Assembly: GCA_951230915.1 (NCBI GenBank)
Contig: OX579633.1
Location: forward strand, 62,001 to 126,000
Reading direction: 5' to 3'
Length of the DNA: 64,000 nucleotides
Source of the DNA: Antitrichia curtipendula
Taxonomy: Eukaryota; Streptophyta; Bryopsida; Hypnales; Leucodontaceae
Part shown: positions 10,706 through 56,366 of the stretch, one piece after another
Position numbering within the stretch: the stretch's first letter is position 1
Layout of the letters: each line of letters opens with the position of its first letter
Translations under genes and position numbers: made by a program
The notes under the pieces: model-generated
Seen by the model: only the letters and a program-made list of their open reading frames with translations
What the model was told of the DNA's origin: nothing
Databases searched by the model: none

Positions 10706-10729
10706 AAGAGTCGGATTAGGATTTGATGC

Positions 10730-21404: not shown

Positions 21405-24400
21405 TTATCGGGGGATTCCATTCAAAATCTGATCCCTCAATTGTCTAGAGGGGTTACGAAAAAACTGAGCACCGGATAGAGTATTTTTTTGCGCATATTG
21501 CCGAACGGGTTTGTTGGACTCAAACAAACCGTTTAGCCAACTATAGACCCCTGCTTGCAAATGTTGGTCTTGTACAACACCATCCCAGCGCGGAGGATAA
21601 ATTGTGTTGTACCTATCATTTGTGAGATTTTCCATTGGACTGTCATCCACTAGAACAACATTATCAAGAGAATCTAATTTAAGAATGTTGAGCAGCATTG
21701 CCAAATCTTTTAGATAGAATGGCTTACTTGGTTGGCTAGGATTCCTATATTTTGATAGGATACAATGTTCTTGGGATAAAACAATCACCTTTTGTCTGTT
21801 TATTACCTTTGATTGATGTAGCAAAAATGCCACTGCTCGGTTCACGTTCCTTGTCGACATAGAACTCCAAAACACCAGATTTGCATTTCCGTACAACCAT
21901 TCCAAAAAATTCATACAGCCTTCTCGCATTTTAAAGCTCCGTTGGTTGGTGGCCGCATCGATGTACCATTGCACCAAGACTCCACTGGGTTCTAGGACAA
22001 CGTGATATTGTCGTCGAGGTGCCCTTCTTAACAAACATGTCTGCACATCATCCCCCAAACCTGCAAGAAGTAGGTAAAAAGAACAATTAGATATGAAATC
22101 ATAACCATTAACATTAACGGCGATATACAAGAAATGAAATATACAGTTGTCACCTGGTGCACCAGCGACATCTCTATTTGTGGCTTGATTTCCTGCACTC
22201 GTGTTGGCCCTTGCATTGGTTGCAACTCCTTCGCTTGTGACATAAGGGCGCATATGTTTGTCACTTAGAGCACTGTCTACAACCCCACTTTCAAATTCCT
22301 TTTCCCTACTCATACCGATGATTGCGTCAGTTGCAACTCCTCTGCCAACGTCATTGGCAACTTCTATCTGCATCCCCTGCCAACCTTGTGCCCACTCAAT
22401 TATTGGGCCGTAAATGCACATAGTCGCCTCCTTCAAGGTTTCTATTTCCTTTGTTTTCTTAATACGAGCCTCGATCTTCTTCTGAAGTTCGTCTTCGTGA
22501 GAGAGCTCCTTCTTCTTCTTCTTCCCGCCCCAGATTTCTTTTTCTTTCCCGAGTTTCTTTCTGCGAGCAATTACCAAGTGCGGATTCCGTAAGGGTTCAT
22601 GCTCATAAAAGGGTGTCCTCAACCGTCCATTACCGAATACAAAATCATTCAAATCCCTATACCAAGCCCCTGGATCATCTTTGACATTCAATGCTCCGTA
22701 TTCGCCTCCTTCACCTTCTCCCCAAGCTGCCACTATAACATCAACCGGGGCGTTGGCCTTTGAGGTGACATCCAATCCTAATAACGTTGTGTCCTGCTCC
22801 ACAAGATCAATGGGGATCACGTCCACCGTAAGCCATGTTGGGACGCTACCGGTCAAGCCAACAATCCTGCCCATTGGCGGCAATGGCATCTTTGGGGGGC
22901 TTGCCGATGGAGCAATGACCCCATTGCTCTGTTCACCCATGATTCTAATGCTATGATCCTCCTTTTGAGACCCGGGCTTTGACAATGCAGATGATGGTAG
23001 CAATACAAGTGATGGTCTATGGGGTACGCTTGATTGGCCATTTGGCTTAGGAACTTTTGATTTTTGGTTTTTTGGTTTAGCTTTGTGGTTTTTTGATTGT
23101 ACTAGTGATAAGCTTCGCAATGCAGATGACGAGTCATCCGGTGTAGGGTTTATGGGTTTAGCATTGCGTTTCTTCGAGCGCACGGATTTCTTCGGGGGTA
23201 AGGGTGACGGGCTGCTGAAACGGGGTTTAGCATCAACCGCCTGGCTCTGACCATCTTTTCTTTGACGCTTCCGTGAATAAACCACGGTCACAATGTGGCT
23301 CTCGCTCTCGCTAGTACTCCCGCCCATGAGCTCCTTCCTTTGCCCGGGCGACCACATGCATTGCAATGTGTGGGCTACTTCTTGTTCGTCTGCATTGCAT
23401 GCTCCTAAATCTAGTAGGTCCACCAATGCACGGTTCTTCTTCTTGTTACTATTCTCCTCCTCCTCCCGTGGAGCTGCCGTTGGATCTCTCTTACGTCGGT
23501 GGTTCCTTATGCTCACGCAACTAGATCCCGCCGCGGCTTCCTCTCCCTTAGCCATATTCTCTCCCGCCCTATGTCCTTCTAGTGGTGGCTCCAAATGCGG
23601 CTCTAAAACTGATTCATTGTCATCACTTAGGACAACAATCTCTGTCGCTACACCCAAGAATGATGAATTTGACAATTGCTGTGATGGTCGCGTTCCACGT
23701 GTCCCATCCCTGTCCTCCCGTGTATGTGTCTGCTCAACCTCTTGTGCTAGCTCTTCTCGCGGCTGAGTTGGGTTGGGTACTTGAGGGGGATCCCGCTTCG
23801 CCTCCAACGCCCGAGGTGCTCCAAGTACATCCTCCTGCCATCCATCCAACTGTTGCTGTACGCCGACCATTGGAGAATCTGGTGGAGGTAGGTCGAGATC
23901 TTTGAGCGGATCCACATGCATCAATGGGGGAAGAACTTGCTCTATACAGTCAATGGATCGCCCTTGCTCAGGATCCTTCGCTGGCATTGATCCTTCCAAT
24001 GGTGGTTCGAAATGCGGCTCTAAAACCAATTCACCATCATCATTTAGGACGACAACCCTTGCCGTTGCACCCGGGGATGACAAATTCGACAATTGTTGCG
24101 GCTGCTCCGCTGTGCGTACCTCGTCCTCATTCTCCCGTGAGCGCGTCCACCCAACCTCCTGCGCCGGTTCTTCTTGCACCTCAATTGGGCCGGATATCCG
24201 TGATAGATCCCGCTTCGCCTCCAACGCCCTCGGCGCTCCAAGTACATCCTCTTGCTTTCCGTCCAACTCTTGCCATACGCCAACCACTGGAGAATCTTGT
24301 GCAAGCAGGTTGAGGTCTTTCAATGGATCCACCCGTGTCGATGGGGGAATGACTTGCTCTATGTAGTCGATGGATTGCCTTTGCTCGGTATCCTCCGCCG

Positions 24401-27400
24401 GTGTTGAAGGCTCCCTTGAGTCCATACCACCATCCTACAACAAAGGCACATCTTCACCACATAGCACCCTCAATCCAAATTTTCCATGCAAAGATCACAC
24501 GGCACGTACATTCTAAAACCACCTAAAATATGAGATCTTCTAGAGGTTCAACAAATGATACGTACAGTCATCTGGTCTTTTCCGATCGTCCCTGTCTTTT
24601 GTTGCCGTGGAATGCGTTCGAAGGGACTTGCTATTGGTGGCACATTGTCCATAATCTCTTGGAGACTTGCGCCTCTGTTGCGGGCTTCTTCCACTTGGGA
24701 TTTGGGCTTGGCACATTGGGTGTCCCGAATTTCTTTTGTCCATTTTTTACCTCCCATTGCCGTTTCCGCGGATTCCCACGCTTTTGCATCTTCAATTCTT
24801 TTTGCGTGCTGAAACGCAACAGTTAATGATCAGCGGGACTGGAACTCCGGGACATGGACATGATTTCGCCAAAAATACCGAACAAGAAGTTTGGTTACAA
24901 GGCATACCGATACAAGCTGTGTGATTTCAAGGCCTTCATTGACATTCACGAGGGCGCGACCGCCCTCCCACACCGTTGCTGGCTTAGGTACACTTGACGG
25001 ATCCCCGGGCGCTTGCGCCCACTCAACCCCTTGTACTACTTCTTCTGACTCCCGGTTTGGGCCGGATACTTGCGGCAGATTGTGTTGTGCATCCAACGCC
25101 CTAGATGCTTGAGATATATCATCTTGCCATTCACCCGACTCTTGTTGTATGCCAACCATTGGAGAATTTGATGCGGATGGATTGAGGTCTTCCGATGAAT
25201 CCACCTGCATCGACAAAGGATTGGCTTGCTCTTCGTAGTCAACACATTGCTTTTGCCTAAGATCTTTTAGAAGCGTCGAAGGCTCTGTCTGGTCCGTACC
25301 ATCTTCCTACAGCAAAGACACGCCTTCCGCCATCGTTAGCACATAGCACCCTTGACCCGGGTTTTCCATGCCTGGATCACATTGCACCTACACCTCGGAC
25401 CCCCCGGGGTCGAAGATCTTTTGGAGGTCCAATAAAAAATGTGCACACTCACCTGTTCTTTCTCGGATGACCTTGCCGTTTGTTGCTGTGGAATGAGCTT
25501 TGAAGAGCTTGTTGTCAATGGCGTGTTGTTCACAATTTCTTGGAGATTTGCGCCCTTGTCGTGGGCATCTTTGGCTTGGGATCCGGATTTGGTGCGTTGG
25601 GCGTCCCAAATTTGTTTTGCCCATTCTTTACTTTCCAATACTGCTTCCATAGATTCTACAAGTTCTAAAACTTTAACTCCTTTCCAATGCTGCAATATAA
25701 CAGTCGGTGATTAGCGAGACTGGAATTCCAAGACATCAACGTGATTTTGCTAAAAATAACAGAAAAGGAGTTTGGTTCCAAGGCATACCAGTCCCAGATG
25801 CGTGATTTCAGGGCCTCCATTGACATTCACAAGGATACCACCACGGCAATTGAGCCCCTTGAATATTGTCATGGGGGTGTTGATCTTCAAATACGGTACG
25901 TGTTGCCGCCTCCAAAAGTATTTATCGTTGCTCATGTTCTTCGCATCGTACAGTGGCTGAAGGTTGTCCAATCCCGGGAAGAAGCTTTTGAAGCATGCTC
26001 TGGAATCACGGTTAGAATGGGTCCCAAAAACAAATACTACAAACACATTGAACTGTTTTCCGGACGTTGGCGAAGGGAATCCATCCATGGACCCTGCCAT
26101 ATAATTGACAACATGAAAATTCCACACTTTGGTTCCCGTTTTCTTCCCTTGTTTTTCCATGTGCGCCTTAATCATATAAAACCCTTCCGCATCCGTAAAG
26201 AAAATGGCACCGGACTGGACTGAGACCGCGTTGTCTTTGGGGTCGTGGGACTCGAGAGCGCTGAACATTCTCTCAAGTTTCTCCTGTTCGAGAATCTTTG
26301 CCCGAGCCCCCAAGGGTGTACCCTCGAACATGAACCAGAAGTAGATGCACGGCTCCTTTGCTTCCCGCCATGCTTTCACGTCCGGCGTTGACAGCGTTTC
26401 ACTAATGTTCCAACTTTCGTTGTCCACGATCTTGCATAGGTATCGCTCGGCAAACTCTGCTTCCAATTCTCGCATAACTTCCGCGTCTCCTCTCTCTTTG
26501 AAGAAAGCCTTCCACATATCCGTGACAAGCCGGGGACAATCTTCCGGCTGGTGGCTCTTGTTCAAAGGCCTTGTCCTACCCTTGAACCACTCTTGGCCGA
26601 CAGGGTGCGCCATGGCAATGTGCACCCACATCTCTAGTTCACTGCGAGTGATTTCTTTTTCCATCGCAAATTCTTCCCACATGGATTCTGGATAAGGACT
26701 ATACTCAGCACTCTTTGATGGAAGCAGGTAATTCTTATAGTGTTGGAGGAGCTCATTCTTCATCGCCCTGACAAATCTCTCTATGCGGGCGGCGCATTCC
26801 AAATTCATTAGAGCTTTGCCATCTGACAGCGAGCTCTTCTTCATGGTAATGTTTTGGGCCTCCACCCGTGATGCTAAATAGTTGATGTCCTCCACTCGTA
26901 ATCCGTAGAGCGGTTTGAAGTCGGTTTGTAGGAGCGGCTTACGTTTTAACTTCCCTTCTTTATCAACCGTGCCGCGTGCATCCGGAAGGAGTCCCTTCAT
27001 GTAATTCGCTTCAATCTCCAACCACCTTGTTACGTCCGCATCGTTCTCTAGGAACACAAGCGGATACTTTTGGTCACTCGAGTTGCCAGACTTCATTCCT
27101 GCAAATATTGTCATTGAAGCCCGGAGAAATGCCTAGTCATAGCCAAAAAAAAGGAAGTTAGAATACTGCATGGCGCCCTTGAATAGAAATCCACTAGAAG
27201 ACGTGACAATACTTGCATTGCGGAGGACCTCACAACAACTAACAGAAGACCAAGAGATCTCATGGTGATCTCAAACTTGTTTGAGAATGGACTGAATGCA
27301 CGACCGGGCTTAAAAAGATGGCCTAGAATCTTACAAGGTACTTTTCCGAGTGCGTTCTTCCCATTATAGCCGGGGCCGGAGATCCCATGCTCCGCCACTT

Positions 27401-29078
27401 GATCCTTGCATTCACCAGTTGTTGTGTCCATTTTTGCTCCCTTCGTTCACCAACAAGGTTCTGATTTAACGACCTCGAGAGCGTCATTAGGAGATCGACG
27501 CCGGCATCGTTCACCGCGGCCCACACAGGTATGATGTTGAATGTGGAGGCGCGCTCCTTGTCCTTCTCTTCAATTTCACCGGCTTCGACCAAGTTCTTGT
27601 GAGCTTCCACTGTGTGCTGCCCCCCGATGATAAAGTAGTGCGTGTCTTTGTCTTCAAAGGTTTCCTTGGGCGGCTCTGTATTGTAATATGTGACCTCATT
27701 CCCGGGGCTGGTAGGTGGAACGCCTTTGAGCGGCAAGACGGTAATGACCCTGACGTCTGAATCAAAGTCCGGAGCGATTCGCACCTGGTTTTTGATTCCT
27801 TTGAGGCGATGCTCGTCTATGCCCCTGTAAATGAGCCATCCGTGTGGAGCCTTATGTAAATGATCAAAGTGCACACGGATGAGATTGCCATCGTCGCCGC
27901 ACATTGCTCTCTTGCCCCACTTGTACAAGCCGCCAAAGGCATTTTCATATAACTCTTTTATATACTTCATGTCTTCCACATTGAGCTTCAACACTTGCGA
28001 CTCCGACATGTCCACGCATGCATGCAGTGTCAATTCTTGTCCATCTTTTGTCTTCCTCACCAATGGCACTTCTTCTTTGGCATCTCCAAGAGCTCGGATC
28101 CCTTCCTTTTTTCCCTTCCTAGATTTCTTTGGCGGAGGAGTGGTTCCTTCCGGTGGCTCAAATGGCGCCTCTCCCTCGGTATCATTGGGAGCTCTTGCGC
28201 CCGTCTTCCGCTTCCCGGCTCTCTTATTTGAAGTTGGCTTGGGAGGGGTCACTTCTTGTAGCTGGGAGCCATGGTTGAATTCGGCAAGTTCGTCTTCAAT
28301 TATTTCCCACTGGTCCTTCATATCTTCAGGACTCCACCAAAGATGCGCCGTTTGTTCCTTCTTCATCAGGCATCCCTTCCTCGTCACTGTCTCGCATAGA
28401 TCAAGTTTCATTTTTGTATAGTCCAAGATCAATCCGTATGTCATGTGCTCTCCAGAACGGATATTCTTCTCTTCTACAATCAGAAGCACCGTGTCGTTGT
28501 TCAGTCCTTGCAGCTCCAGAATACGTAGGCCGCCTTCCGGATGCCGTTGTTCCCTATTTACAAGCACAGGGAGAATGACCGCGGAATCCCCTGCTCTTGG
28601 TTCTTTCCACGCAATGCCCCAACCCGTCACATGATCCCGGCAACGGAAAACCGCTCCTGGTTTATTACGTTCACCCTGGTATTGGAAGGAAGGAATGTAC
28701 CCGTCAATGAAAGCAGCGAGCTTCTTTGGAGACTTTCCAAGTGGCCCATTTTTTTCCTGCATTGCACTGAAGCATTCCGGCAGAGGACGTCGGTGTGAGC
28801 AATTTTTTAGGAAACGGGAGATCCTAAAACTGCCATGTCTTAAATCCTACACCCTACTCTCACCGTGTCTCCAACTTGGAACCACTTCTGCTAATGCCTA
28901 GCAATGTGGATGACAGTTACAATGCCAAGAAATCAAGACAATAAAGATTCAAAGTTTTTAACTTACGGGTCATCCCAATAGAAATTGTCGGCTGCTCGGT
29001 CCGATAGTTGTGCTGCCATTGCAAAGTACTGCGGTCGAGAAGGCGGTCTCTCCCTTCTAGAGTTCAACTCAAACTTTA
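21405..29078 (-). CDS. Large multi-exon protein: ParB-like region plus C-terminal FCP1/HAD-like domain (5' partial model)
   Basis: Exons 29078-28967, 28823-27335, 27132-25789, 25689-25453, 25306-24908, 24808-24566, 24434-22154 and 22060-21405 join with matching phases at GT-AG borders (GTAAGT, GTAAGA, GTATGC, GTGAGT, GTATGC, GTACGT, GTGACA donors). The first acceptor (TTGTACAG) implies a further 5' exon. The product is about 2,250 residues. Exon 2 holds a segment (YFIIGGQHTVEAHKNL, then IPVWAAV, then SRSLNQN) resembling the ParB/sulfiredoxin superfamily. Exons 4-7 form a repeated, charged, low-complexity linker with basic runs. The last 200 residues match plant FCP1/HAD-like phosphatase domains (NLVFWSSMSTRNV, NVVLVDDSPMENL), but the DxDxT/DLNG nucleophile site reads VVLEPSGVLV, so catalysis is probably lost. 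Two separate genes remain possible, though no stop or phase break separates the parts. GC is clearly higher than in the flanks. Confidence 0.6.
22061..22153 (-). other. Predicted 93-base in-frame, stop-free intron
   Basis: Exon end CACCAG, donor GTGACA, and a pyrimidine-rich acceptor CTACTTCTTGCAG. The segment is a multiple of three with no stop, so it reads through as an uncharacteristic hydrophobic stretch (CIFHFLYIAVNVNGYDF). Retained and spliced forms would both stay in frame; removal brings the linker next to the HAD-like domain. Confidence 0.6.
24435..25789 (-). repeat. Tandemly duplicated exon-intron block inside the large gene
   Basis: The block from the end of one exon (NVNGGPEITHL at 25789) through a 99-base intron, an exon starting HWKGVKVLE and the following intron is repeated as NVNEGLEITQL (24908), another 99-base intron, an exon starting HAKRIEDAK and its intron. 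Both 99-base introns begin GTATGCCTTG and are alignable. The homologue of the first copy's GTGAGT donor reads ATGACT in the second copy, where a GTACGT six bases further on keeps the phase. Confidence 0.75.
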
Positions 29079-34809: not shown

Positions 34810-37270
34810 TATATTCCTACCAAATTGAATTTAGAGTATTGAATCTATGTTCTTTCCCCAAAAAATTTGATTCAATACCCTACGTGTTGAAATGAAGTTT
34901 TACCAATCCGATTATTTGCTTTCCATTCATTTTTTCATATTCCAATATCCTCAAAAGAGCGTTGAATCTATATTCTTTTCAAAAAAAATTTGATTCGATA
35001 CCCTAGGTGTTGAAATGAAGTTTTAGTAATCCGAAGATTTGCTTTCCAATTTTTATTTTGTATTTCAATACCCTCAAAAGAGCGTTGAATCTATGTTTTT
35101 TCCAAAAAAAATTTGATTCGATACCCTAGGCGTTGAATTTGAGTTTTAGCAATCCAATTATTTGCTTCCCAAATTTTTTTTTCATATTTCAATACCCTCA
35201 GAAGAGTATTGAATCTATATTCTTTCCAAAAAAATTTGGATTCAATACCCTAGGCGTTGAAATGAAGTTTTAGCAATCCAATTATTTGCATCCGAATTTT
35301 TTTTTTCTTGATTCAACACTTTCAAAATAGTATTGAATCTACGTTCTTTCAAATTTTTTTTGATTCAATATCCTAGGTGTTGAAATCAAGTTTTAGCAAT
35401 CTGAATATTTACTTCCTAAATTAGTTTTCATATTTCAATACCCCCCCCAAAAAGTATTGAATTTACACTCTTTCCAAATCTTTTTTAGTTCAATACCCTA
35501 GGCGTCAAAATGAAGTTTTAGTAATCCAATTCTTTACTTCCTGATTCTTTTTTCTTATCTCAATACCCTCGAGAGAGTATTGAATTTATGTTCTTTCCAA
35601 AAAAAATTTGATTAAATATCCTAGGTGTCGAAATGAAGTTTTAGCAATCCAAAGATTTGCTTCCCGAATTTTTTTTTCTTATTTCAATACCCTCAAAAGA
35701 GTATCGGATCTATGTTTTTTTCAAATTTTTTTTGATTCAATATCCTAGGTGTTGAAATCAAGTTTTAGCAATCTGAATATTTACTTCCTAAATTAGTTTT
35801 CATATTTCAATACCCCCCCAAAAAGTATTGAATTTACACTCTTTCCAAATCTTTTTTAGTTCAATACCCTAGGCGTCAAAATGAAGTTTTAGTAATCCAA
35901 TTCTTTACTTCCTGATTCTTTTTTCTTATCTCAATACCCTCGAGAGAGTATTGAATTTATGTTCTTTCCAAAAAAAATTTGATTAAATATCCTAGGTGTC
36001 GAAATGAAGTTTTAGCAATCCAAAGATTTGCTTCCTGAATTTTTTTTTTCTTATTTCAATACCCTCAAAAGAGTATCGGATCTATGTTTTTTTCAAATTT
36101 TTTTTGATTCAATATCCTAGGTGTTGAAATCAAGTTTTAGCAATCTGAATATTTACTTCCTAAATTAGTTTTCATATTTCAATACCCCCTCAAAAAGTAT
36201 TGAATTTACATTCTTTCCAAATCTTTTTTAGTTCAATACCCTAGGTGTCAAAATGAAGTTTTAGTAATCCAATTCTTTACTTCCCGATTCTTTTTTCTTA
36301 TCTCAATACCCTCGAGAGAGTATTGAATTTATGTTCTTTCCAAAAAAAATTTGATTAAATATCCTAGGTGTCGAAATGAAGTTTTAGCAATCCAAAGATT
36401 TGCTTCCCGAATTTTTTTTTCATATTTCAATACCCTCAAAAAAGTATTGAATTTATGTTCTTTCCGGAAAACTTTGATTCAATACCCTGGGTTTTGAAAT
36501 GAAGTTTTAGTGATCCTGGGATTTGATTCCTTTTTCTTTTTCTTTCTTATTTCACTACCCTCAAAAGAGTATTGAATTTACGGTCTTTCCAATTTTTTTT
36601 TTGATTCAATATCCTAGGTGTTGAAATGAAGTTTTAGCAATCTAATTATTTGCATCCTGATTTTTTTTTCTTGATTCAATACTTTCAAAAGAGTAGCGAA
36701 TCTACGTTCTTTCCAAAAAAAATTTGATTCAATACCCTAGGTGTTGAAATCAAATTTAAACAATCCAATTATATGCTTTCCATTTTTATTTTCTTGATTT
36801 AATACCCTCGAAAGAGTATTGAATTTACATTCCTTCCAATTTTTTTTTTAATTCAATACCCTAGGTGTTGAAATGAAGTTTTAGCAATCCAAAGATTTGC
36901 TTTCCAATTTTTTTTTTATATTTCAATACCCTCAAAAGAGCGTTGAATCTATGTTCTTTCCAAAAAAAATTTGATTCAATACCCTAGGTGTTGAAATCAA
37001 GTTTAAGCGATCCAATTATTTGCATCCCAATTTTTTTTCTTAGATTCAATACCCTCAAAAGAGTATTGAATTTATATTCTTTCCAATTTTTTTTTGATTC
37101 GATACCCTAGGGGTTGAAATTAAGTTTTAGCAATCCGATTATTTGCTTCCCAAATTTTTCTTTAATATTTCAATACCCTCAAAAAGAGTATTGAATTTAC
37201 GTTCTTTCCAAAACAAATTTGATTCAGTACCCTCGGCGTTGAAATGAAGTTTTAGCAAATAGCAATCCAA
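34810..37270 (+). repeat. Satellite-like array: unit about 120-124 bases, higher-order unit 372 bases
   Basis: Units built of GATTCAATACCCTAGG, TTGAAATGAAGTTTTAG, CAATCCAATTATTTGC and CAATACCCTCAAAAGAG repeat about 20 times. Between 35,330 and 36,420 three successive units form a repeat of exactly 372 bases: TTTTAGCAATCTGAATATTT recurs at 35391, 35763 and 36135. Copies outside this block are more diverged. There are no open frames. Confidence 0.9.
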
Positions 37271-40900: not shown

Positions 40901-43096
40901 ACTTCTTCTAGAAATCATTTCATATTTTATTTGAGTTGAAAATTTTGGCAATAGAAACCTATAGTCATTATTACACAATGCTCAAACTTTAGGTTAAAAT
41001 TATAGTTTATTAGAACCCACTTATTTGCACGTGGTTTGTTGTAGTTGAATTAAGTGCACCCCCTGAGCAACTACTAGGGTGTAGTTATTTTCAATATTGG
41101 CTAGGACACAATACCATGATTAATTTATGGGATAGTTATATTAATGCTCCAAGGTTGTAATGCCGGATGTCCTTAACTTTGTCTGCTCAAGTTAGTAGCA
41201 ATTACTCTCATAGTGATCACTTATGCATGACTTTATGAAGTGGAGATGGATTGAGGCCAAATTTTGACTTCAAAAATTCATAATAAATTCAATTCAAGAA
41301 AAAAAATTACAAAAATTTGACAATGCCCATCATTTCTATCTTCCTACAGGGCTGTATACAATAATGAGGATTTAGACCATTCATAAGAATCTGATGTTAG
41401 GTTCACTCATGAATGTAAAAATAGAAATCATGTACTGGATTCAGATGATAGAAGCCATGCATTGGGCATAGGATGTCATTACATCGTGTAATTGTATCAC
41501 TTTATGGTACTATTGGACTCAATGTTGTCAAAAGGACATTATAAAAATAAGAAATGATTTCAATTAAACCCTATATGTCTGATTGTGTTTTAGAAAAAAA
41601 AAATTGGATTGATATATTGTAAAGCCAAAAATTGTTTGTTTCAAAATATTTATAAAAAAAATTTGTATCATGTTATTAGCTTTTTAGCATACTAATTTGT
41701 ACCTAATTTCAGTAAGTTGTTGAAGAATTATGAGATAAAATATGTTTTTGGTTTCAACTTGGGTGGCTAAATTTTTTTAATTAAAATAAATTTTAATCTA
41801 AATATAGCATCATATTACTAGTTTATCTAAGTATAATGTTTTAAAACTTCAAAATACAAAACCTCAATGACAACAAGATGTTTACCTTGAAATTTGAAAA
41901 TAGGAATTTCTTACATCACTTTCCACATGTGCAATTCATCTTGAGTTTTTTTCTAGAAAAATGTAAATATCTCACAACTTTTGCAAATTAATGATATACT
42001 TTAATATTTTGTTGAAAATCAATGAAAAAAGTTCAAGAATAAAAGCTCAAATGGAAGAATTTTCTTATACTTGATGTGCCCATGTTGAGAACAAAAATAA
42101 TAAATTGGACATAATTTTGTAATCAATAGTCCAAATTCTATAAATTTTATCTTGTATTAAAGACAACCCTTGTGTTCATGCACATATTTGAAAATTTTTA
42201 AGTGTTGGGTTGAAAAAATGAGATTGCAATTGCCTACATGAAAGTAATGAAAGCCACCCAAACAACCTTCAATCATTTAGGGGTTAAATAAATGTAGCAA
42301 AAGTTTTAATTTTGTAAAATCATGAATGTAAAATAAAGTATCTAATTTTAGTATATAGTAGATGAGGGTTGCTATTATGTAAGCATAGTAATCTGAGCCC
42401 ATGAGCCTAGAATACTACACACCTATGTTATAGGTGAATATATAATAGAAACTATCTATGATTATAAGATATATATGTCGCAAATATCCATCTTATAGGT
42501 GTTTAAGATACATACACCTTCTATAGTGTATAGTATCTATATTACAGGTAGCTAAAATTGAAGGCTCAATGCTCACAAGCTCGCATTTTTGGACTCACAT
42601 ACTAGCACCGTTGTATAATAGATATGTAGCCATGAGTCTATATATTATTGTAGCGGAACAATCTTATTTCAATGAGAAATAAAAAAAATTTAATATGAAA
42701 GAATATAGCCTTTATTGATGGACAAAATACTATTTTAAAGAATTCACAAAGTTGGTAAGCACTAAAAGTATATGATTTAGATTTGTAAAAGTATTATTTA
42801 TTTTTATTGCATAATGGGAGCAAAAAATATTTGCCATTGAACTACGAATAATAGTATAGATGTTACTTCTAAGCATCTTAAAAATAATAAATAAAACTTT
42901 AAGATGCATATATTGTATATTCATACTACAAGATGTATTGTGTATAACTTTGAAAAAATTATTTTCTAAATGCAACTAATATAGTGATAATAAACTTACC
43001 ATGAGATGATAGGCATGAATGATTTTATTATTAAGTTTAAATCTAACTTGTGAATAATCATAGTCAGTTTAGGAAGGCAGTTACTACCTCTTTTAA
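37931..43096. other. Long AT-rich intergenic stretch
   Basis: No gene is supported in about 5.2 kb. Termini of the TTAA element family appear singly at 38920-38938 (GGTCCTTTAGGGCTTAA) and 42277-42287 (CATTTAGGGGTTAA). Two diverged copies of about 105 bases lie at roughly 38,985-39,205 (AATAAAGTGACTTTGG and AATAGAGCGATTTTGG, each followed by GTTGAAAGAATTCTT-like sequence). Around 42,420-42,560 there are several CTATAGGTGTTTAAGA-like AT-rich near-repeats. Confidence 0.45.
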
Positions 43097-43126
43097 GTGC
43101 ATAGTGACACAAATGTCACTATGCAC
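43097..43126. repeat. Perfect 13-base inverted repeat with 4-base loop
   Basis: Arms GTGCATAGTGACA and TGTCACTATGCAC flank CAAA. The sequence before it (CTACCTCTTTTAAGTGCATAGT) recurs in diverged form at about 43,498 (CAGCCTCTTTTGAGTGCGTAGT), suggesting both are ends of one small insertion. Confidence 0.8.
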
Positions 43127-43884
43127 AAAATAAAAAAAATAAAAATTTGAATTTATTTATTTTTCCAATTACCCTCCTTGATGAGCTCAAAAAAATTAAA
43201 AAATATTTTTCAACCCCCCTTCCCCCTCTTTTGTAATTTTGAGGTGGGGTTGGGGTTGGGGTCGGCAATCAATATGCGATATATCCCATATCCATATATG
43301 TATCCGTAGTTACGTATATATCCGTAGCTGTATATGTATATGTAGCTATACATGTATCCATATTAGTAACATATCTATATCCATATCCGTATCGTATACC
43401 AAATTGTTTTTTTGAATCGACGGTGCTCCAACGGGGTCTGATTTTTTTTAACACAATCAATAGCTCTCATTGACCAGAATACCCAAACGGGTAGTGACAG
43501 CCTCTTTTGAGTGCGTAGTCAATACAAATCTTGTTTTTCAAATTGAACCTTTGACATAAGTTCCTAATGTGACTCTTTAATTTCTTATATAATTAATTTA
43601 AATCTAGTAATGCCTAAATTTTTAGTGTCATGTGGTATGTGGTTGAAAGTGTTATTAATTAAAATTTTGTACTTTAACTATTAATTATTGTATCACTTGA
43701 ATGTCCAATAAACAACCATAATGCATATTAATTAAAACACTGCTTCCGACAATCCAATGGCTAATTCGGACGTACATAAACCAGCTCAACCCGGGCCTCC
43801 ACTCAGAGGCACTCAAGAACCCACTCCGTGAAGCCCTCGTACATTCAAAAGCGCAATACAGGCCGGTCTGTCGACTGGCCATCT
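43127..43884. other. AT-rich flank of the GC island
   Basis: Apart from the simple repeat at 43262-43405 and the diverged CCTCTTTTGAGTGC segment near 43,500, nothing is recognised. GC begins to rise from about 43,740. Confidence 0.3.
43262..43405 (+). repeat. Degenerate TATCCATA/TATCCGTA simple repeat
   Basis: About 20 variants of a 6-7 base unit (ATATCC, GTATCC, GTAGCT with AT spacers) run in a row. A decayed microsatellite; the open frame read from it is not a gene. Confidence 0.75.
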
Positions 43885-46059: not shown

Positions 46060-46800
46060 GGCGGGCATTTATTATATACTGCGGTTTCGAATAATTGGGA
46101 AGGCGCAGTCGATCACCGAGGAATAGGACGACGTCAGTGAAAGAAGGGCAAGGGCAACTCTGCGGGCATGGAAGAATTCGGGGTCGGGTGAAGCTTTCTT
46201 CGCTGCCCCTATAGTGCGGCCAGGGACTTGGCCTGGGGACCAAGCTACCTGCCTCAAGAATGCAGGAATCACGTGTTTCATGACCACGGAGAAGCCGATC
46301 AGGTCCTCTTTTTTTTCCTTTCAGTGAATTGAGTCTCCCTTTACATCGCTCGTCATCAAGCATTCCAGGGAGGATGCGAAATGATCAATTGAATTACGTT
46401 TCGGTTTGTGAGTGTCACTGTTCATTTTTTTTAAAGTTGCTTTCGCAAATGATTTGCAAACTCTGTTTTCTCCAGATTCCACTGCAATTTCTCGTGTTCC
46501 ACCCCATGTGCGCTCTGCATTGCTAAAGGCCTTGCTAAATTCATCATCATAAAGTCCATGCTCATCCAAGGCTGATTTTTGGGCCATCTCTTATGCACCT
46601 GCCCAAGTTTGGAATAACTGACATCTCACCTTCAATCACGCCATCAATTCATAGTAGTTTCTGTAATTCCTTATTTCAGATGCTTTTCGAAAGGCTGACT
46701 GAGCTAATCTTGAAACCCCACCGAGATTCTTTCTTCGTTTCAATCACTGCTGTCGCAAATTCGACCTGTCCATGAACGCACGGTTTTAGGCCCGTTTGCG
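46060..46800 (-). pseudogene. Coding-like remnants of an unidentified minus-strand gene
   Basis: Several short minus-strand stretches have gene-like composition but do not join into one frame: IGFSVVMKHVIPAFLRQ followed by a GTAGCT donor-like site (about 46,250-46,310), MAQKSALDEHGLYDDEFSK (from 46,587) and ETKKESRWGFKISSVSL (about 46,700-46,760). No family is recognised. This is either a decayed multi-exon gene or chance. Confidence 0.25.
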
Positions 46801-47101
46801 GGATTCCTTCCATGGCCATGAGTCCGGCATTACAGGGTTAAAGACTCGTTTCATCCATCCATTCCTCTTCTCGTCTCACGTCTGGAGGGCTTCACAAGCT
46901 TTCGATTGCTGTGTCTTGTGTTCTGCGTGTGTTGCGCGCGCTGGGAATGAATTTGAAGTGGACGTGAAGATGGCGACCTCCAAATCGCAAAAGTGACTGA
47001 ATGGATTCAAGGACACAGATCACGGAGTAAGAAGGGATTCGAACCAAAGGATTTTTTTTGTTAGACAGGTTCAGGGTTTAGGGTTTCGAAGCACACATCA
47101 G

Positions 47102-47350
47102 GATTTGTCTCAGGAAAATGAGGATTTTAGGGTTTGTGATTTTACTGATAAACTCCCGTCCTTGATTCGCGTGGAACAATGCCTGCTGAAAATTGTGAAG
47201 GCAGCACGGTTGAGGCAGATCAAGGGGAAGCGTGGCGATTGGAACGATTTTGTGGCAAATGTGAATAAAAAACGGGGTGAGACTCATAGTGACCCTGTGG
47301 ATGTTTTGGCTGCTTTTGTACGAACTTTTTCCAAAAAGGAAGACGTTGAG
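47102..47350 (+). CDS. Candidate internal coding exon, unidentified
   Basis: From the acceptor CACACATCAG to the donor GAGGTAACA, 249 bases give 83 codons in phase 0 at both ends, with a charged, helix-rich composition (LIRVEQCLLKIVKAARLRQ, then DWNDFVANVNKKRG, then VDVLAAFVRTFSKKEDVE). An alternative acceptor TTAGACAG at 47068 is also in frame. No family is recognised and no upstream coding exon was confirmed. Downstream on the same strand lie the 54-base exon-like modules of the 382-base array, whose first frame (VLKKESWECFEEVI then stop) would continue this one. Confidence 0.4.
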
Positions 47351-48319
47351 GTAACACTCTCGTAGATTTAGTTTCTCAACTTGCACTTTGCCGCGTTCCT
47401 ATCTTGGACAGCATTCCGATTTTCACTGCTTCTAAATTGTTCATTGCTCTTCTAGTCTCTTGGATTTTGAAAATTGCGTATGTTATTCGAATGTATTTTT
47501 GAGTTCGGGTTTTTGCATAGCTCCATGACAGTAACCAATCCTAGAAGTGATTTTTTTTTGGTCCCACCACTTGGTTGAGGGTATGGGCAAGAGATTAGAT
47601 CAACGCTTGAGCAAGAGAATCATAACAGAAGTCGTTTCATATGGTTTCAGTACTCATAGTATTCTATTGATTCTCGAAGTTAAAATCATGGGGAACCTAA
47701 TTTTGACACCATGACATCCTCTTAATTGGACACATTTAATCCTCTCCATCGCATTTCTTGCATTCTCAGCTTCTCCCTCGTTTCCTACTTGTTGATTTTG
47801 GTGTAGTTTTCGCCTTGGCAGGGGTTGTTTTCGGTTTGGGTGCTCTCATTTGTGCGTGCTTGCTTGAGGAGGCGTGGCGCAAGCGTGAAGAACTTTGTTT
47901 TTCCACCACATCATTGTTCTTCTGTATTGTTCGATCCGGGTGAGTTAGAATGTTTCCGAGGTGTGGATTTCGTTTTTTTGAGGTGTAGTCGATGGTTTCA
48001 GTTTGGGTCTCCGGTGGTGACTTTAGGGTTGGATTCTGGTTGGAATTCGGGAGTTCAGATTTTCTGCGGTGTGTGTTGTGTAGTCGCACGGTTCTCGGTG
48101 ATGTCGCTGGCGTTGATTACAGTAGTGGAGAGTAAGGGATTTGTGGAGGGATTGGTGAAAATATTGAAAGTTTATTCAGATGTGCAGTGTGATGTCTTTT
48201 TGTTGCACTTGTCCTTGTGTTTCGATTGTGATGATTACTCACTCACAGCACCGTTAGCTTATTGTCAGCCACGGGTATTGCTTACTCTTGCGCTTACTCT
48301 TGAAGTCCATCGCTCGGGG
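47351..48319 (+). other. Probable intron or flank, no domain recognised
   Basis: Follows the GTAACA donor of the candidate exon. A plus-strand frame at 47825-48394 is Val/Leu/Cys-rich without domain features and is not called. Confidence 0.25.
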
Positions 48320-49075: not shown

Positions 49076-49910
49076 CACACTTAAGAATAGGTATTTGGAA
49101 TAATATATATACTATCATCTTCCCCATATTGAGGCGGTTGTATCTTTTGCTCATTGGTGTTATATGTTATGTTTAGAACCTTTGCCTTCTTCTTTAACAC
49201 GCTATCAATACGAAATGAATTTCTTTTTGAAGAATTTTAAACTTTAAAAAAAAAGAAAACGAAAGGTTTCTTTTGTAGTTTGTTTTTTTGAGTGAAAATT
49301 GAATTACATTGAAGTCTAATGTTGTTCTAAATTCTATATTTTTGATATGGCAGGTCCTAAAGAAAGAGTGAAGGGAATGCTTTGAGGAAGTCATATGATT
49401 TACAAAGGTACGTGGATGTATTACAATTTTGAATCCTGTTTCAATTCAATTGCTTCAAGTTTTAACATTTCAAATGTACGGAATCCGTTAAAGGATTGAT
49501 TTCATTTTTCATTTTTTTTGAAGTTTAGAATCCTCGATGGATTGAAGTGAATTGGCGCCTAGAACCAATCAGGTTCCGGGCTGACATTTCGAATTCGTTT
49601 CTTTTTGAGGAATCTCGAACTTCAAAAAAGAAAAAAAAAATGAAAGATTTCTTTCATAGTTTGGTTGTTTTGGGTGAAAATTGAATTGCATTGAAGTCTA
49701 ATGTTGTTTTCAATTCTATGTTTTTGATATGGCAGGTCCTAAAGAAAGAGTGATGGGAATGCTTTGAGGAAGTCATATGATTTACAAAGGTATGCGGATG
49801 TATTACAATCTTGAATCCTGTTTTGGTTCAATTGCTCCAAGTCTTAGAGTTTCAAACGTACGGAATCTGTTAAAGGATTGATTTCATTTTTCATTTTTTT
49901 TGAAGTTATG

Positions 49911-50640
49911 ATTCCTTGATTTTTTTGAGCATTGGTGTTTTTTGAGGTTTAGGATTTTGTTGTGTGGATGGCAGATGTCTGAGATGGATGGTGCCATTGT
50001 CACTCTCTTCTCCGATTAGGATTGGTCCTATTTGCAATTTTTTAGAGCGTTTTTTTTTTTTGAGGTATAGGATTTTGTTGTGTTCATGGTAGATGCCCGG
50101 GATGGAGGGTGCCATTGTCACCCTCCTCTTGGGTCAGGGTTGGTTATGTTTGCAATTTTTTTCAATGTTGATGTTTTTTGAGGTTCAGGATTTTGTTGTG
50201 TGGATGGCAGATGTCCGAGATGGATGGTGCCATTGTCACTCTCTTCTCGGATTAGGATTAGTCCTATTTGCAATTTTTTTCAATGTTGATGTTTTTTGAG
50301 GTATAGGGTTTTGTTGTGTTCATGGTAGATGCCCGGGATGGAGGGTGCCATTGTCACCCTCCTCTTGGGTCAGAGTTGGCTATGTTTGCGATTTTTTTCA
50401 ATGTTGATGTTTTTTGAGGTTCAGGATTTTGTTGTGTGGATGGCAAATGTCCGAGATGGATGGTGCCATTGTCACTCTCTTCTCGGATTAGGACTGGTCC
50501 TATTTGCAATTTTTTTCAATGTTGATGTTTTTTGAAGTTCAGGATTTTGTTGTGTTGATGGTAGATGTCCGGGATGGAGGGTGCCATTGTCACCCTTCTC
50601 TCGAGGTCGGTCATATTTATAATTTTATTTAATAATAGCG
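49911..50640 (-). repeat. 118-base hairpin repeat inserted in the array, 6 copies, inverted
   Basis: GTGCCATTGTCAC recurs at about 118-base steps between 49990 and 50582. It is the reverse complement of the 8.9-10.7 kb family, with the same hairpin arms in the best copies. Two variants alternate (ATGTCCGAGATGGATGG and ATGCCCGGGATGGAGGG), giving a 236-base dimer. It interrupts one 382-base module within its intron. Confidence 0.9.
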
Positions 50641-51188
50641 AATGTTATGTACAATTTTAACGTATCCAAGAGCTATTTGCAGCATGGAGTTAGAGCAGGT
50701 TCTAAACTCTATGTTTTTGATATGGCAGGTCCTAAAGAAAGAGTCATGGGAATGCTTTGAGGAAGTCATATGATTTACAAAGGTATGCGGATGTGTTACA
50801 ATTTTGAATCCTGTTTCAATTCAATTGCTTCAAGTTTTAACGTTTCAAACATACGGAATCCGTTAAAGGATTGATTTCATTTTTCATTTTTTTTGAAGTT
50901 TAGAATCCTCGATGGATTGAAGTGAATTGGCGCCTAGAACCAATCAGGTTCCGGGCTGACATTTCGAATTCATTTCTTTTTGAGGAATCTCGAACTTCAA
51001 AAAAGAAAAAAAAAATGAAAGATTTCTTTCATAGTTTGGTTGTTTTGGGTGAAAATTGAATTGCATTGAAGTTTAATGTTGTTCTAAATTCTATGTTTTT
51101 GATATGGCAGGTCCTAAAGAAAGAGTGATGGGAATGCTTTGAGGAAGTCATATGATTTACAAAGGTATGCGGATGTATTACAATCTTG

Positions 51189-52624
51189 CGGAGTTGGCAA
51201 GAAGACTATTGCTTGCGTTTTTATCAGGTACTGGTTCTGGACTGTGGTGTGTTGTGGGTTTGTTTTGCTGTGGGGGAAGGGACGGCGATTGTCGAACCTT
51301 GAGCGCAGAAATCGGAGGCTGGCGCGCGTTCTTGAGTGAAAATCGGGAGCCTTTGCTGGGTCTGTTTTTGAGTTGTTGGTGCGGCTGTGTTGAGGTTGTG
51401 TGTGTATGTTTGGGCGATGTGATGATCGTGAAGGTTTCTGAGTGATTGTTAGTGCGAGATAGGCCGATTGTTGGTGCGGGGATGGCATTCTTCTAGAACT
51501 GTGAGTGTTTTTCGGAAAGAAGTCCGGTGGTGCGAGGAATGCGGGCGTGTATGAGTTTCCTTTTGTAGTTAAGGTTTCGTGTCGTGTGAGTTTCGTTTTT
51601 GGTGAGGTTTCGGAGCATCTGTGGAGGGGGATGCGGTTGAAGGGTGTTAGCCTGGCACGGTGGACAATATTCTTAGGTCACGATTCTTGCGTAACAGGAG
51701 CTTAGATTCCTTCTGTAGGTGTGTTTCTTGGAGAGCTTTCACGTCTGTGAAAGTTCGGGTAAGAGGAGTGGTGGCATGACTCTTCAGCACTTTTACTCGG
51801 GAGTAGCTTGTGGATCCTTTGGTTCGTAATCTGAGGTGGAATGGGACGCGCTTTTTTGGTTTCTTTGCAACATGTTACATGTTTTTTCTTTGCGGCGCAC
51901 GTCTCTAAATGGTCATTCACGTGTCGCATTGCTGCTTTTTGTAGCTGTTGTACAGTTGTAGTATCATCGACTAAGTAGTTGTGGGTTAAGGGTGTCCGTG
52001 CAGTCCGATATACTGCCAAGAATCATAATCAGTTGCTTGAGGATTGATACAAAATGAAAACAAGTGTGGACTTTTGGTACCTTGATGGTTGACCGGATTG
52101 TTGACTTGGAAGCTCGGAAGCAACAGGGTAGCGGTTTTTCTTGCGAGTGAATGTGGATTGGAATTCCACTAGTAGTTCTTGAGCAAGCGAGAATATGTAG
52201 TGAGGAACTTACGACTATGTCTTGGTTTTATACGAACCCTGCAGTCCTCGATTTGTATCAAGCTGCAGAATCAATGCTGGGTATCCTGACATCATGATCC
52301 CAAACCAGAAACGATAAGTAATCTGTTAACAAACGCGGTTGACTCGTTTCATCACGCCCACGTTTTGGGGCTGAGGATGCTATTTGGCAGTCTACACAAT
52401 GTTTTTGCATTCCATGTCTTACTCCTGTTTGATATCATAGTGCTTTTAGTGTTGTCTTTTCCCTTTTTAAAAGTAATCACAATCCAATGCAAATAAACAT
52501 TTGACGCAAGGATGCTGTATGGCATTGTATTATTTTTATAGTTTGTAACTCACGCAAGGATGTTACAAGGCATTGTATGATTTCCTAAATGTGTCGCATC
52601 TAATTCAATATTACCCAGTTTCTA
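51189..52624 (+). other. 1.4-kb insertion inside one 382-base module
   Basis: The module breaks after GTATTACAATCTTG and resumes at AATCCTATTTCAATTC, where other copies are continuous. The inserted 1,436 bases are more GC-rich at first (51.2-51.7 kb) with an open frame of no recognisable domain. No terminal repeats or target duplication were found, so its origin is unknown. Alternatively it is the ancestral unique sequence and the array grew on both sides. Confidence 0.6.
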
Positions 52625-54839
52625 TAAATCCTATTTCAATTCAATTGCTCCAAGTTTTAGCGTTTCAAACGTACGGAATCCGTTAAAGGATTGATTTCAT
52701 TTTTCATTTTTTTTGAAGTTATGAATCTTTGATGGATTGAAGTGAATTGGCGCCTAGAACCAATCAGGTTCCGGGCTGACATTTCGAATTCATTTCTTTT
52801 TGAGGAATCTCGAACTTCAAAAAAGAAAAAAAAAATGAAAGATTTCTTTCATAGTTTGGTTGTTTTGGGTGAAAATTGAATTGCATTGAAGTTTAATGTT
52901 GTTCTAAATTTTATGTTTTTGATATGGCAGGTCCTAAAGAAAGAGTAATGGGAATGCTTTGAGGAAGTCATATGATTTACAAAGGTATGTGGATGTGTTA
53001 CAATTTTGAATCTTGTTTCAATTCAATTGCTCCAAGTTTTAGCGTTTCAAACGTACGGAATCTGTTACAGGATTCATTTCATTTTTCATTTTTTTTGAAG
53101 TTATGAATCTTTGATGGATTGAAGTGAATTGGCGCCTAGAACCAATCAGGTTCCGGGCTGACATTTCGAATTCATTTCTTTTTGAGGAATCTCGAACTTC
53201 AAAAAAGAAAAAAAAAATGAAAGATTTCTTTCATAGTTTGGTTGTTTTGGGTGAAAATTGAATTGCATTGAAGTTTAATGTTGTTCTAAATTTTATGTTT
53301 TTGATATGGCAGGTCCTAAAGAAAGAGTCATGGGAATGCATTGAAGAAATCATATGATTTACAAAGGTATGTGGATGTATTACAATCTTGAATCCTATTT
53401 CAATTCAATTGCTCCAAGTTTTAGTGTTTCAAACGAATGGAATCCGTTAAAGGATTGATTTCATTTTTCATTTTTTTTGAAGTTTAGAATCCTCGATGGA
53501 TTGAAGTGAATTGGCGCCTAGAACCAATCAGGTTCCGGGCTGACATTTCGAATTCATTTCTTTTTGAGGAATCTCGAACTTCAAAAAAGAAAAAAAAAAT
53601 GAAAGATTTCTTTCATAGTTTGGTTGTTTTGGGTGAAAATTGAATTGCATTGAAGTTTAATGTTGTTCTAAATTTTATGTTTTTGATATGGCAGGTCCTA
53701 AAGAAAGAGTCATGGGAATGCATTGAAGAAATCATATGATTTACAAAGGTATGTGGATGTATTACAATCTTGAATCCTGTTTCAATTCAATTGCTCCAAG
53801 TTTTAGCGTTTCAAACGTACGGAATCCGTTAAAGGATTGATTTCATTTTTCATTTTTTTTGAAGTTTAGAATCCTCGATGGATTGAAGTGAATTGGCGCC
53901 TAGAACCAATCAGGTTCCGGGCTGACATTTCGAATTCATTTCTTTTTGAGGAATCTCGAACTTCAAAAAAGAAAAAAAAAATGAAAGATTTCTTTCATAG
54001 TTTGGTTGTTTTGGGTGAAAATTGAATTGCATTGAAGTTTAATGTTGTTCTAAATTTTATGTTTTTGATATGGCAGGTCCTAAAGAAAGAGTCATGGGAA
54101 TGCATTGAAGAAATCATATGATTTACAAAGGTATGTGGATGTATTACAATCTTGAATCCTGTTTCAATTCAATTGCTCCAAGTTTTAGCGTTTCAAACGT
54201 ACGGAATCCGTTAAAGGATTGATTTCATTTTTCATTTTTTTTGAAGTTTAGAATCCTCGATGGATTGAAGTGAATTGGCGCCTAGAACCAATCAGGTTCC
54301 GGGCTGACATTTCGAATTCATTTCTTTTTGAGGAATCTCGAACTTCAAAAAAGAAAAAAAAAATGAAAGATTTCTTTCATAGTTTGGTTGTTTTGGGTGA
54401 AAATTGAATTGCATTGAAGTTTAATGTTGTTCTAAATTTTATGTTTTTGATATGGCAGGTCCTAAAGAAAGAGTAATGGGAATGCTTTGAGGAAGTCATA
54501 TGATTTACAAAGGTATGTGGATGTGTTACAATTTTGAATCTTGTTTCAATTCAATTGCTCCAAGTTTTAGCGTTTCAAACGTACGGAATCTGTTACAGGA
54601 TTCATTTCATTTTTCATTTTTTTTGAAGTTATGAATCTTTGATGGATTGAAGTGAATTGGCGCCTAGAACCAATCAGGTTCCGGGCTGACATTTCGAATT
54701 CATTTCTTTTTGAGGAATCTTGAACTTCAAAAAAGAAAAAAAAACGAAAAATTTCTTTCATAGTTCAGTTGTTTTCAGTGAAAATTAAATTATATTCGAG
54801 TGTAATATCATTTTGAAATTTATATTTTGGATATTGCAG

Positions 54840-54971
54840 TCTGCAAAGGAGGATTTTCAAGATGTTCATGTGAACTTGATTTTCAAGATGTTCATGTGAA
54901 CTGGATTTTCAAGATGTTCATGTGAACTTGATTTTCAAGATGTTCATGTGAACTTGAACAATTTTAAGAAG
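54840..54971 (+). other. Probable untranslated leader exon with a 26-base repeat x4
   Basis: It lies between acceptor GATATTGCAG and donor AAGGTATGC. Four copies of a 26-base unit, GATTTTCAAGATGTTCATGT plus GAACTT, start at 54852, 54878, 54904 and 54930 with one substitution. Each unit contains ATGTTCATGTGA, so a spliced leader would carry four minimal upstream open frames (M-F-M-stop). Confidence 0.6.
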
Positions 54972-55265
54972 GTATGCAAATTCACCTAAACCTTGAATCT
55001 TATTTATATTGGAATGTTTGAAATTTTTATGTTTCAAATGTATAGGATTTATGGAGGGGTTCATTTTGTTTTTTTTGAAGTTATGATTCCTTGATGGATT
55101 GAATTGATTTGGCGCTTAAAACCAATTAGGTTCCGGGCTGACTTTTCAAATTCATTTTCTCTTAAGGATTTTTACTTCATAAAAAAAGAAAGTGAAATAT
55201 TTCATTGAAGATGAAATTTTTAGCGGATTAATATTATTTTGTTTTTGGTAGCAGGAGTTAATCAA

Positions 55266-56366
55266 ATGGGAAAGAAAAGAAGAGGTTCTAGAGGGAAAGG
55301 TTCGAAGGATGTTTATGAGAAAGAAATTCGAAAGAGGCGAAAAGAAGAAAACATTGAAGACGCGAAAATCCGAATTGGAGGAACCAATCCAGTTTTTATT
55401 TATGAAAAAGAACGACAACTTGAAAATTTCAAGGGAGAGCGCATGGACAGAATTCCAGAAGATTATACCCGAATTTACCACGGCAGAGTTGCGGTTCAAG
55501 ATAGAGAAACCAAAGAAATAGTTCTTATGGTACGGTTCTCTCCTTTCAAGGATATGATGGCGAAAGATCGAAAGGATCTAGCGAGATCTATGAAGACATT
55601 GATAGAACTATCGAAAACGAGTAACAAGATCAAAGGAAATGTGAGTCACAAAAATGGAGATGGCGTGATGTACGCGTTAGGTTGGAGAGGAGGATACGAT
55701 GCAAATTTCTCCTTGGGAAGATACGTACCTGTTCCCGCGGTTCAAAAATCCAAAGCAGCTTTACGGAGATGGCAAGAAGCTCAGGAAAAGAAAGTGGCTG
55801 AGATCGGCAATGTATACCGAACCCGGTTTGAAGATAGGGCTTCGGAACTTTTTCGTAAAGTATCCAAAGAAGCAATTGAAGCCGGAGTTCCTGATTTCTC
55901 TCAGACCGAATTTCTTGATCTGGAGCCCATAACAGAGGTATTTGCCAGTAACTTGACGTATAGCTTTCAAGACTTTTCGAATGCATTTCACAAAGATAAA
56001 GATTATAACTCTTATTCCTATGGAATTTGGGCTCCATTGATTGCAAAGACCGGAGATCTAGCTACCGTGGGTGATGGTTTTAAATGCAAGGGTGGAGAAT
56101 TTCTTATACCCACTTACAAAATCAACGTCGATTTCAACGAGTGCGATGGTATTGTGGAAATAATTTGGAGGGGGAAGCAGGATTTTCACGCGACTTCGAA
56201 ATCTGAAAGTTCAGAGGGATTTACCCGATTGGGTACTTCAGTTCAAATCAGTCGCAGTTTAGTTTTTAGACTCTGGAATACTATAGAAGAAGAAAATAGT
56301 ATTGAAGGGGCAAACAACAGAATACGCGGAGTGCAACAGATTGTCATGGAGAAAGGAGGGATTTAG
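55266..56366 (+). CDS. TET/JBP-type 2OG-Fe(II) dioxygenase
   Basis: A single coding exon of 366 residues. The start at 55266 is the first ATG after the TTGGTAGCAG acceptor; an upstream in-frame ATG at 55239 lies in the intron. The protein opens with a basic segment (MGKKRRGSRGKG), probably a nuclear or nucleic-acid-binding tail. The C-terminal half carries iron ligands H242-x-D244 (NAFHKDKDYNSYSYGIW) and H308 (QDFHATSKS), plus the 2OG-binding R321 (GFTRLGTSVQIS), 13 residues further on. The block FNECDGIVEIIWRGK is characteristic of TET/JBP-family proteins known from basidiomycete fungi and some green plants, where family members oxidise 5-methylcytosine or thymine, and in fungi many travel with KDZ DNA transposons. 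Substrate here is inference; no KDZ transposase is in the window. The 5' leader runs into the 382-base array. Confidence 0.8.
   Translation: MGKKRRGSRGKGSKDVYEKEIRKRRKEENIEDAKIRIGGTNPVFIYEKERQLENFKGERMDRIPEDYTRIYHGRVAVQDRETKEIVLMVRFSPFKDMMAKDRKDLARSMKTLIELSKTSNKIKGNVSHKNGDGVMYALGWRGGYDANFSLGRYVPVPAVQKSKAALRRWQEAQEKKVAEIGNVYRTRFEDRASELFRKVSKEAIEAGVPDFSQTEFLDLEPITEVFASNLTYSFQDFSNAFHKDKDYNSYSYGIWAPLIAKTGDLATVGDGFKCKGGEFLIPTYKINVDFNECDGIVEIIWRGKQDFHATSKSESSEGFTRLGTSVQISRSLVFRLWNTIEEENSIEGANNRIRGVQQIVMEKGGI

Follow-up and report, generated by a model that had tools for sequence, protein, structure and literature searches.

The 64,000-nucleotide stretch of Antitrichia curtipendula DNA analysed here (the window; G000:C1:62001-126000, in a genome set of 400 Mb and 303 contigs, contigs being numbered with the prefix C) carries a gene for a Tet-like 2-oxoglutarate–Fe(II) dioxygenase, preceded by a tandem array of noncoding modules, each of which holds a 54-base exon-like segment between splice signals and an intron with a long foldback. 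The gene belongs to a family of near-identical copies; those on chromosome-scale contigs lie near the contig ends and point away from them, the array differs in length from copy to copy, and the reading frames of the module exons are closed. The architecture, taken alone, is very probably as described. That the array serves as an expandable, spliced noncoding leader of this subtelomeric Tet-like family is a reading that we put at even chances.

Members of this recently spread subtelomeric family consist of the captured 5′ end of a gene like that of the small RNA degrading nuclease (SDN), then the noncoding module array, then the coding exon, and the array grows and shrinks, most simply through unequal exchange between near-identical subtelomeres. 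According to the leader reading, transcription would start upstream, perhaps within the captured SDN end, and splicing would carry at least some of the 54-nt exons into a long 5′ leader. Every exon so retained would add 54 nt and short upstream open reading frames (uORFs), with the frame unchanged, and would thereby tend to lower translation or stability.

The module array and the gene behind it

Nine exon-like segments of 54 bases occupy positions 49354-54512 of the forward strand, each with AG before it and GT after it (Table 1), and to that extent the preliminary description of this DNA was correct; the exact 382-base spacing that it had claimed throughout, however, holds for six of the eight intervals, the other two being 993 and 1820. 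In the interval of 993 a 118-bp satellite has been inserted and 167 module bases are absent, and that of 1820 contains a 1438-bp segment inserted in the module 4 intron. The same satellite also occurs in the window at 8944-10710, on the opposite strand and 40 kb away. No target-site duplication is visible at the 1438-bp segment, which was not found in the gene copies on C7, C262 (67.8 kb) and C5:187781; the C262 copy shows a clean empty site for it. Modules 7 and 8 are identical at 382 of 382 bases, which supports the recent growth proposed earlier. Chance can be excluded as the origin of the array, because the autocorrelation at lag 382 was 0.54, whereas lags 50-799 averaged 0.28, and because the exact exon pattern gave 603 matches in the genome, as against 0 for a reversed control. 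Viral contigs held no match to the pattern.

Contrary to what had been thought, the acceptor of the coding exon is not where the array stops: the module 9 intron reaches an acceptor at 54839 and is followed by a 132-nt noncoding exon and a further intron, and only then, at 55255, comes the coding exon, whose ATG is at 55266. Over 153-230 bases the last intron shares 74-82% identity with the module intron, and we therefore regard the last noncoding exon and last intron as an old module, which likewise has a core exon of 54 nt, a GTATG donor and a CAG acceptor. The last noncoding exon equals the 54-nt exon of this old module plus three extra 26-bp repeats. For comparison, 20 of the 32 gene copies described below were fetched, with 10 kb each, giving with the window 21 loci and 243 modules in view; among these loci the 26-bp repeat is present in 1-5 copies.

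Table 1. Positions in the window of the module array, the Tet-like gene and the captured 5′ end
Feature	Position	Strand	Remarks
SDN-like gene 5′ end	46779..47764	+	two exon-like segments with donors, part of next intron
Module 1 exon-like segment	49354..49407	+	first ATG replaced by AAG
Module 2 exon-like segment	49736..49789	+	
118-bp satellite	49921..50633	+	within module 2 intron
Module 3 exon-like segment	50729..50782	+	
Module 4 exon-like segment	51111..51164	+	
1438-bp segment	51189..52626	+	within module 4 intron
Module 5 exon-like segment	52931..52984	+	
Module 6 exon-like segment	53313..53366	+	
Module 7 exon-like segment	53695..53748	+	
Module intron	53749..54076	+	328 nt, long foldback
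Module 8 exon-like segment	54077..54130	+	
Module 9 exon-like segment	54459..54512	+	
Last noncoding exon	54840..54971	+	132 nt, four 26-bp repeats
Last intron	54972..55254	+	283 nt, old homolog of module intron, foldback mostly kept
Tet-like 2OG-Fe(II) dioxygenase coding sequence	55266..56366	+	366 aa, HxD...H kept; PF20515

The 366-aa open reading frame (ORF) matches PF20515, the family to which fungal TET/JBP proteins belong, with an E-value of 1.1e-47 (163 bits, cut-off 27), supporting the TET/JBP-type identity assigned in the preliminary description. In animals, enzymes of the TET family remove DNA methylation marks. A database search with the protein found six relatives at 32-44% identity, and an alignment-based repeat of the search returned the same six; H242, D244 and H308, which we take to be the iron-binding HxD...H triad, are invariant in all six aligned sequences. 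Within the coding sequences of the 21 copies we counted 25 codon variants relative to the consensus, 11 nonsynonymous and 14 synonymous, whereas neutral counting with weighting for transitions predicts 2.72:1 (p=0.002); these codon counts thus show a signal of purifying selection on the Tet-like protein. A plain satellite fails as an account of the whole unit, because the genes to which the array is linked form an intact family that appears to be under constraint.

Reading frames, splice signals and the captured 5′ end

Stop codons occur in all three frames of all 243 module exons, and therefore the modules cannot extend the protein, a role that we rule out. The 54- and 132-nt exons preserve the frame at any number, which a last exon with other 26-mer counts need not do. 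With all its exons joined, the leader in the window would contain 34 upstream ATGs, none in a frame overlapping the coding sequence; a full module adds a 4-codon frame (strong context), a 2-codon frame and a 14-codon frame (weak context), which share a TGA end, and a further frame, of 3 codons, comes with every 26-mer. Of the 243 exons, 227 have the whole 4-codon frame. Because the exons hold short ATG...TGA frames, none of which can be read through, an upstream-frame effect of the module exons is possible, and if spliced in, their uORFs should lower translation or mRNA stability. A more ambitious version, in which the stop-closed, frame-neutral 54-nt cassettes with their short uORFs would act as a copy-number rheostat and unequal exchange at chromosome ends would tune the Tet-like dose per gene copy, we judge unlikely, and dosage control as a selected function is likewise improbable.

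The two exon-like segments of the SDN-like 5′ end lie at ~46970-47026 and ~47131-47350 (limits by eye), and the region as a whole is 91.8% identical over 1001 bp to C3:1981576-1982571. The 61-aa peptide of the second segment matches Arabidopsis SDN1 (PDB 5z9x) with an E-value of 2.8e-4, although two unrelated knotted proteins (the HP0242 chimera and a designed knot) scored better; for a later segment on C3 the same structure was the sole match (E 8.1e-4). A Pfam search with three C3 segments gave nothing. The assignment as SDN-like therefore reflects matches that are weak but consistent. Inspection of the window copy by eye showed that its first segment contains a stop and that the second begins with a length change of 1 base, with both donors kept, so that its reading frame is apparently broken. 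Genome-wide the peptide has 39 matches, of which one is at C3:1.98 Mb and the other 38 are either on small contigs or no more than 0.65 Mb from a chromosome end.

The donor GT is intact in 243 of 243 modules and the acceptor AG in 238 of 243. We rejected these counts as evidence of selection on the splice sites, because a divergence of ~1-2% keeps such sites without selection; intact sites therefore neither prove nor disprove use. That their intactness is no better than this low divergence predicts is one of several points that weigh against a spliced leader. The acceptor has been lost (to CAA) in five modules, four of them within one array, and 8 of the 34 upstream ATGs have a strong context. 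Of the 54 positions in the core of the last exon, 23 match the module exon, a level reached by 282 of 20000 shuffles, and a comparison of old with young modules shows more conservation in the intron core than in the exons. The U content of the last noncoding exon, 37%, is intron-like (module exon 25%, intron 39%, coding sequence 25%). Upstream of ~47030, moreover, the alignment shows the copies C7, C5end and C5:183 to be unlike the window, and therefore a common promoter is not assured; a captured promoter is likely, yet not universal.

Some of these points are what would be expected of a passive intronic tandem repeat, in which the modules would be skipped pseudo-exons within one long leader intron, undergoing neutral length turnover. 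The dead acceptors and the weak conservation of the exon across the older duplication agree with it, as does an array length that ranges from few to ~50 units while the ORF stays intact. It accounts less well for the presence of both splice sites in old and young modules alike, for the complete retention of the donor and for the low U content, like that of coding sequence, of the module exons, and we regard it as possible but doubtful.

The family at the chromosome ends

Full-length matches to the Tet-like protein number 32 in the genome, at 95-100% identity, 31 of them free of stops, plus a broken one on C6. This is an upper estimate, since 20 are on small contigs, some of which could have been assembled twice; C275 and C285, for example, agree in their module spacings. 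All 12 copies on chromosome-scale contigs are 11.6-654 kb from the end of their contig and are oriented away from that end, although those sharing an end are not independent. In the case of the window, contig C1 opens with CCCTAAA repeats, which are of the plant telomere type, and the window is 62-126 kb away from that telomere; the last 2 kb of C1 are without CCCTAAA repeats. Dispersed Tet-like genes in chromosome interiors (C3:10480576, C1:44590975 and others) have ~35-58% identity, many with stops, and no homologous leader precedes the two interior genes that were fetched.

Modules are present in all 23 copies that were read. The numbers in view per locus were 3, 3, 4, 7, 7, 8, 9, 9, 9, 9, 10, 10, 10, 10, 14 and 16, with at least 21 in five (C58, C60, C197a, C197b and C1end), where the array fills the 10-kb stretch and the counts are minima. 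The SDN-like exon was not reached in the view of C2, C25 and C145, which gave the values of 3, 3 and 4, and C2 has eight further exact exon-pattern matches farther upstream. Two copies with 96.9% identical coding sequences have four modules (C5:187781, SDN-like exon in view) and three (C8, partial view). Among the first 100 of the 603 matches, the right end of C1 has 37 exact matches in ~42 module positions including gaps, and C5 at 89-110 kb has 34 in ~50 positions, so that many of the units in that array deviate; a further two copies on C5 have one and two exact matches. Module number thus runs from a few to ~50 between copies, and chromosome 1 alone has 9 at one end and ~42 at the other. 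The variable copy number foreseen in the preliminary description is accordingly found, although the comparison is among paralogous chromosome ends within a single genome and not among individuals. Modules of the same array differ on average by 1.1% and those of different arrays by 2.0%, and 108 of 159 modules have their nearest relative (ties included) in their own array, a pattern that fits unequal exchange.

A second Tet-like family, 53-54% identical to the first, comprises 24 stop-free copies with 375-aa frames, which are mostly nearer the ends (not at the right end of C5). Its gene has a 376-bp tandem foldback directly before the coding exon (L037 6575-7310; z −6.2). Both families are held by 15 ends or contigs, and in 13 the distance between them is 64-78 kb; this two-gene block belongs to duplicated chromosome ends. 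The distance tracks that from the SDN-like exon to the TET gene (Pearson r 0.88, 13 of 15, leaving out C5 right, ~176 kb apart, and C8 right, ~119 kb), although this is a part-whole comparison, the spread falling from 4.7 to 2.5 kb once the SDN-to-TET part is removed; with C8 right added, Pearson r was 0.55 and Spearman 0.84. The array region therefore explains much of the length variation of the chromosome-end block.

Several other features lie in the window. An ORF with a JmjC domain (PF02373, E 3e-18) lies at 6025-7500 on the reverse strand in the same subtelomeric block, and a 1009-aa ORF at 21405-24434, also on the reverse strand, has an NLI-interacting-factor phosphatase domain; the ORFs adjoining the latter, at 24830-28846, have no Pfam family. 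A subtilase ORF has cucumisin as its best match among solved structures. Tandem repeats are found at 3215-5071 (285-bp unit, 6.5 copies, 99% match) and at 34833-37258 (123-bp base unit, ~20 copies, longer periods of 247 and 372).

The intron core and comparison with known systems

The module intron folds more stably than its own shuffles (z −4.0; z −3.1 with 25 shuffles), as does the last intron (z −3.7). Of 60 background segments, two reached the z −3.1 level, both of them folding at z −3.5 or lower, so we rejected the view that the hairpin is uniquely strong; it is notable, not decisive. A background segment at ~43090-43417 itself folds very strongly (z −6.6). A snoRNA or miRNA in the intron was also rejected, Rfam giving sub-threshold matches and none at the gathering score. 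One might suppose that such introns give rise, through their foldbacks, to small RNAs by which the family or the chromosome ends are silenced, the array being a silencing trigger. Both introns do fold, the tandem segment before the gene of the second family does so strongly, and the last intron keeps 33 of the 37 ungapped core pairs, compared with 15-23 when the partners are slid. With one double compensatory change among the core pairs, folding at z −3.5 or lower in the two background segments and no Rfam family at the gathering score, we consider this very improbable.

Another possibility is that the array is a repeated promoter or a set of alternative first exons, with more modules giving more starts. 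The 5′ untranslated region of mouse L1Md elements has tandem monomers whose number differs between copies (PMC6454616), and the arrangement is alike here in that tandem units in variable number lie directly upstream of a gene. The intron core (positions 129-290) contains a CCAAT sequence, and among the six window modules compared it varies at 1 of 162 sites, compared with 21 of 128 in positions 1-128. Among 175 modules, however, the core has as many variable sites (27/162, compared with 24/122 before it), although the minor-copy count is lower (0.8 per site as against 5.5). The Tet-like ORF, moreover, is not a retroelement ORF, and the units here carry an exon, splice signals, stop-closed frames and a foldback instead, so that a promoter role is putative and, in our opinion, decidedly unlikely.

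That the unit is a TET-carrying DNA transposon of the fungal kind seems to us scarcely credible. Many fungal DNA transposons carry TET/JBP genes, the dioxygenases riding Kyakuja, Dileera, Zisupton and other elements (PMC12730594), and the present family resembles them in its Tet-like dioxygenase and its many near-identical copies in this genome. Here, by contrast, the copies are at plant chromosome ends in a single orientation, with a noncoding exon array in front, and 13 ends have a second gene 64-78 kb from the first, as on duplicated chromosome ends. No transposase domain was found in 9 of the 19 window ORFs of at least 150 aa, and between 43.5 and 60.5 kb the only gene-flanking inverted pair of at least 24 nt was an A/T-rich one of 25 nt (76%), shorter repeats not having been sought; neither transposase nor convincing terminal repeats were thus found within these scopes.

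A literature search gave no such arrays and no plant subtelomeric Tet-like genes among the matches listed, which is not proof of absence. For the reading as an expandable spliced leader, the genome offers a natural series, in which almost identical coding sequences are preceded by anything from a few to ~50 units and the effect of leader exons on expression is directly testable, and the amplification of Tet-like enzymes under apparent purifying selection raises the question of their role in DNA methylation at chromosome ends.

The host genes of SNORD115/116 are likewise tandem arrays of noncoding exon-intron units, and the structured core of the intron is shared as well; the present array, however, runs into a coding exon and has no snoRNA family at the gathering score. 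In the subtelomeric multigene families of yeast and parasites, copies are common to several chromosome ends and are apparently homogenised by exchange. The Tet-like family is alike in both respects, but it is found in a plant genome, encodes an enzyme resembling DNA demethylases and carries a putative noncoding leader of variable length.

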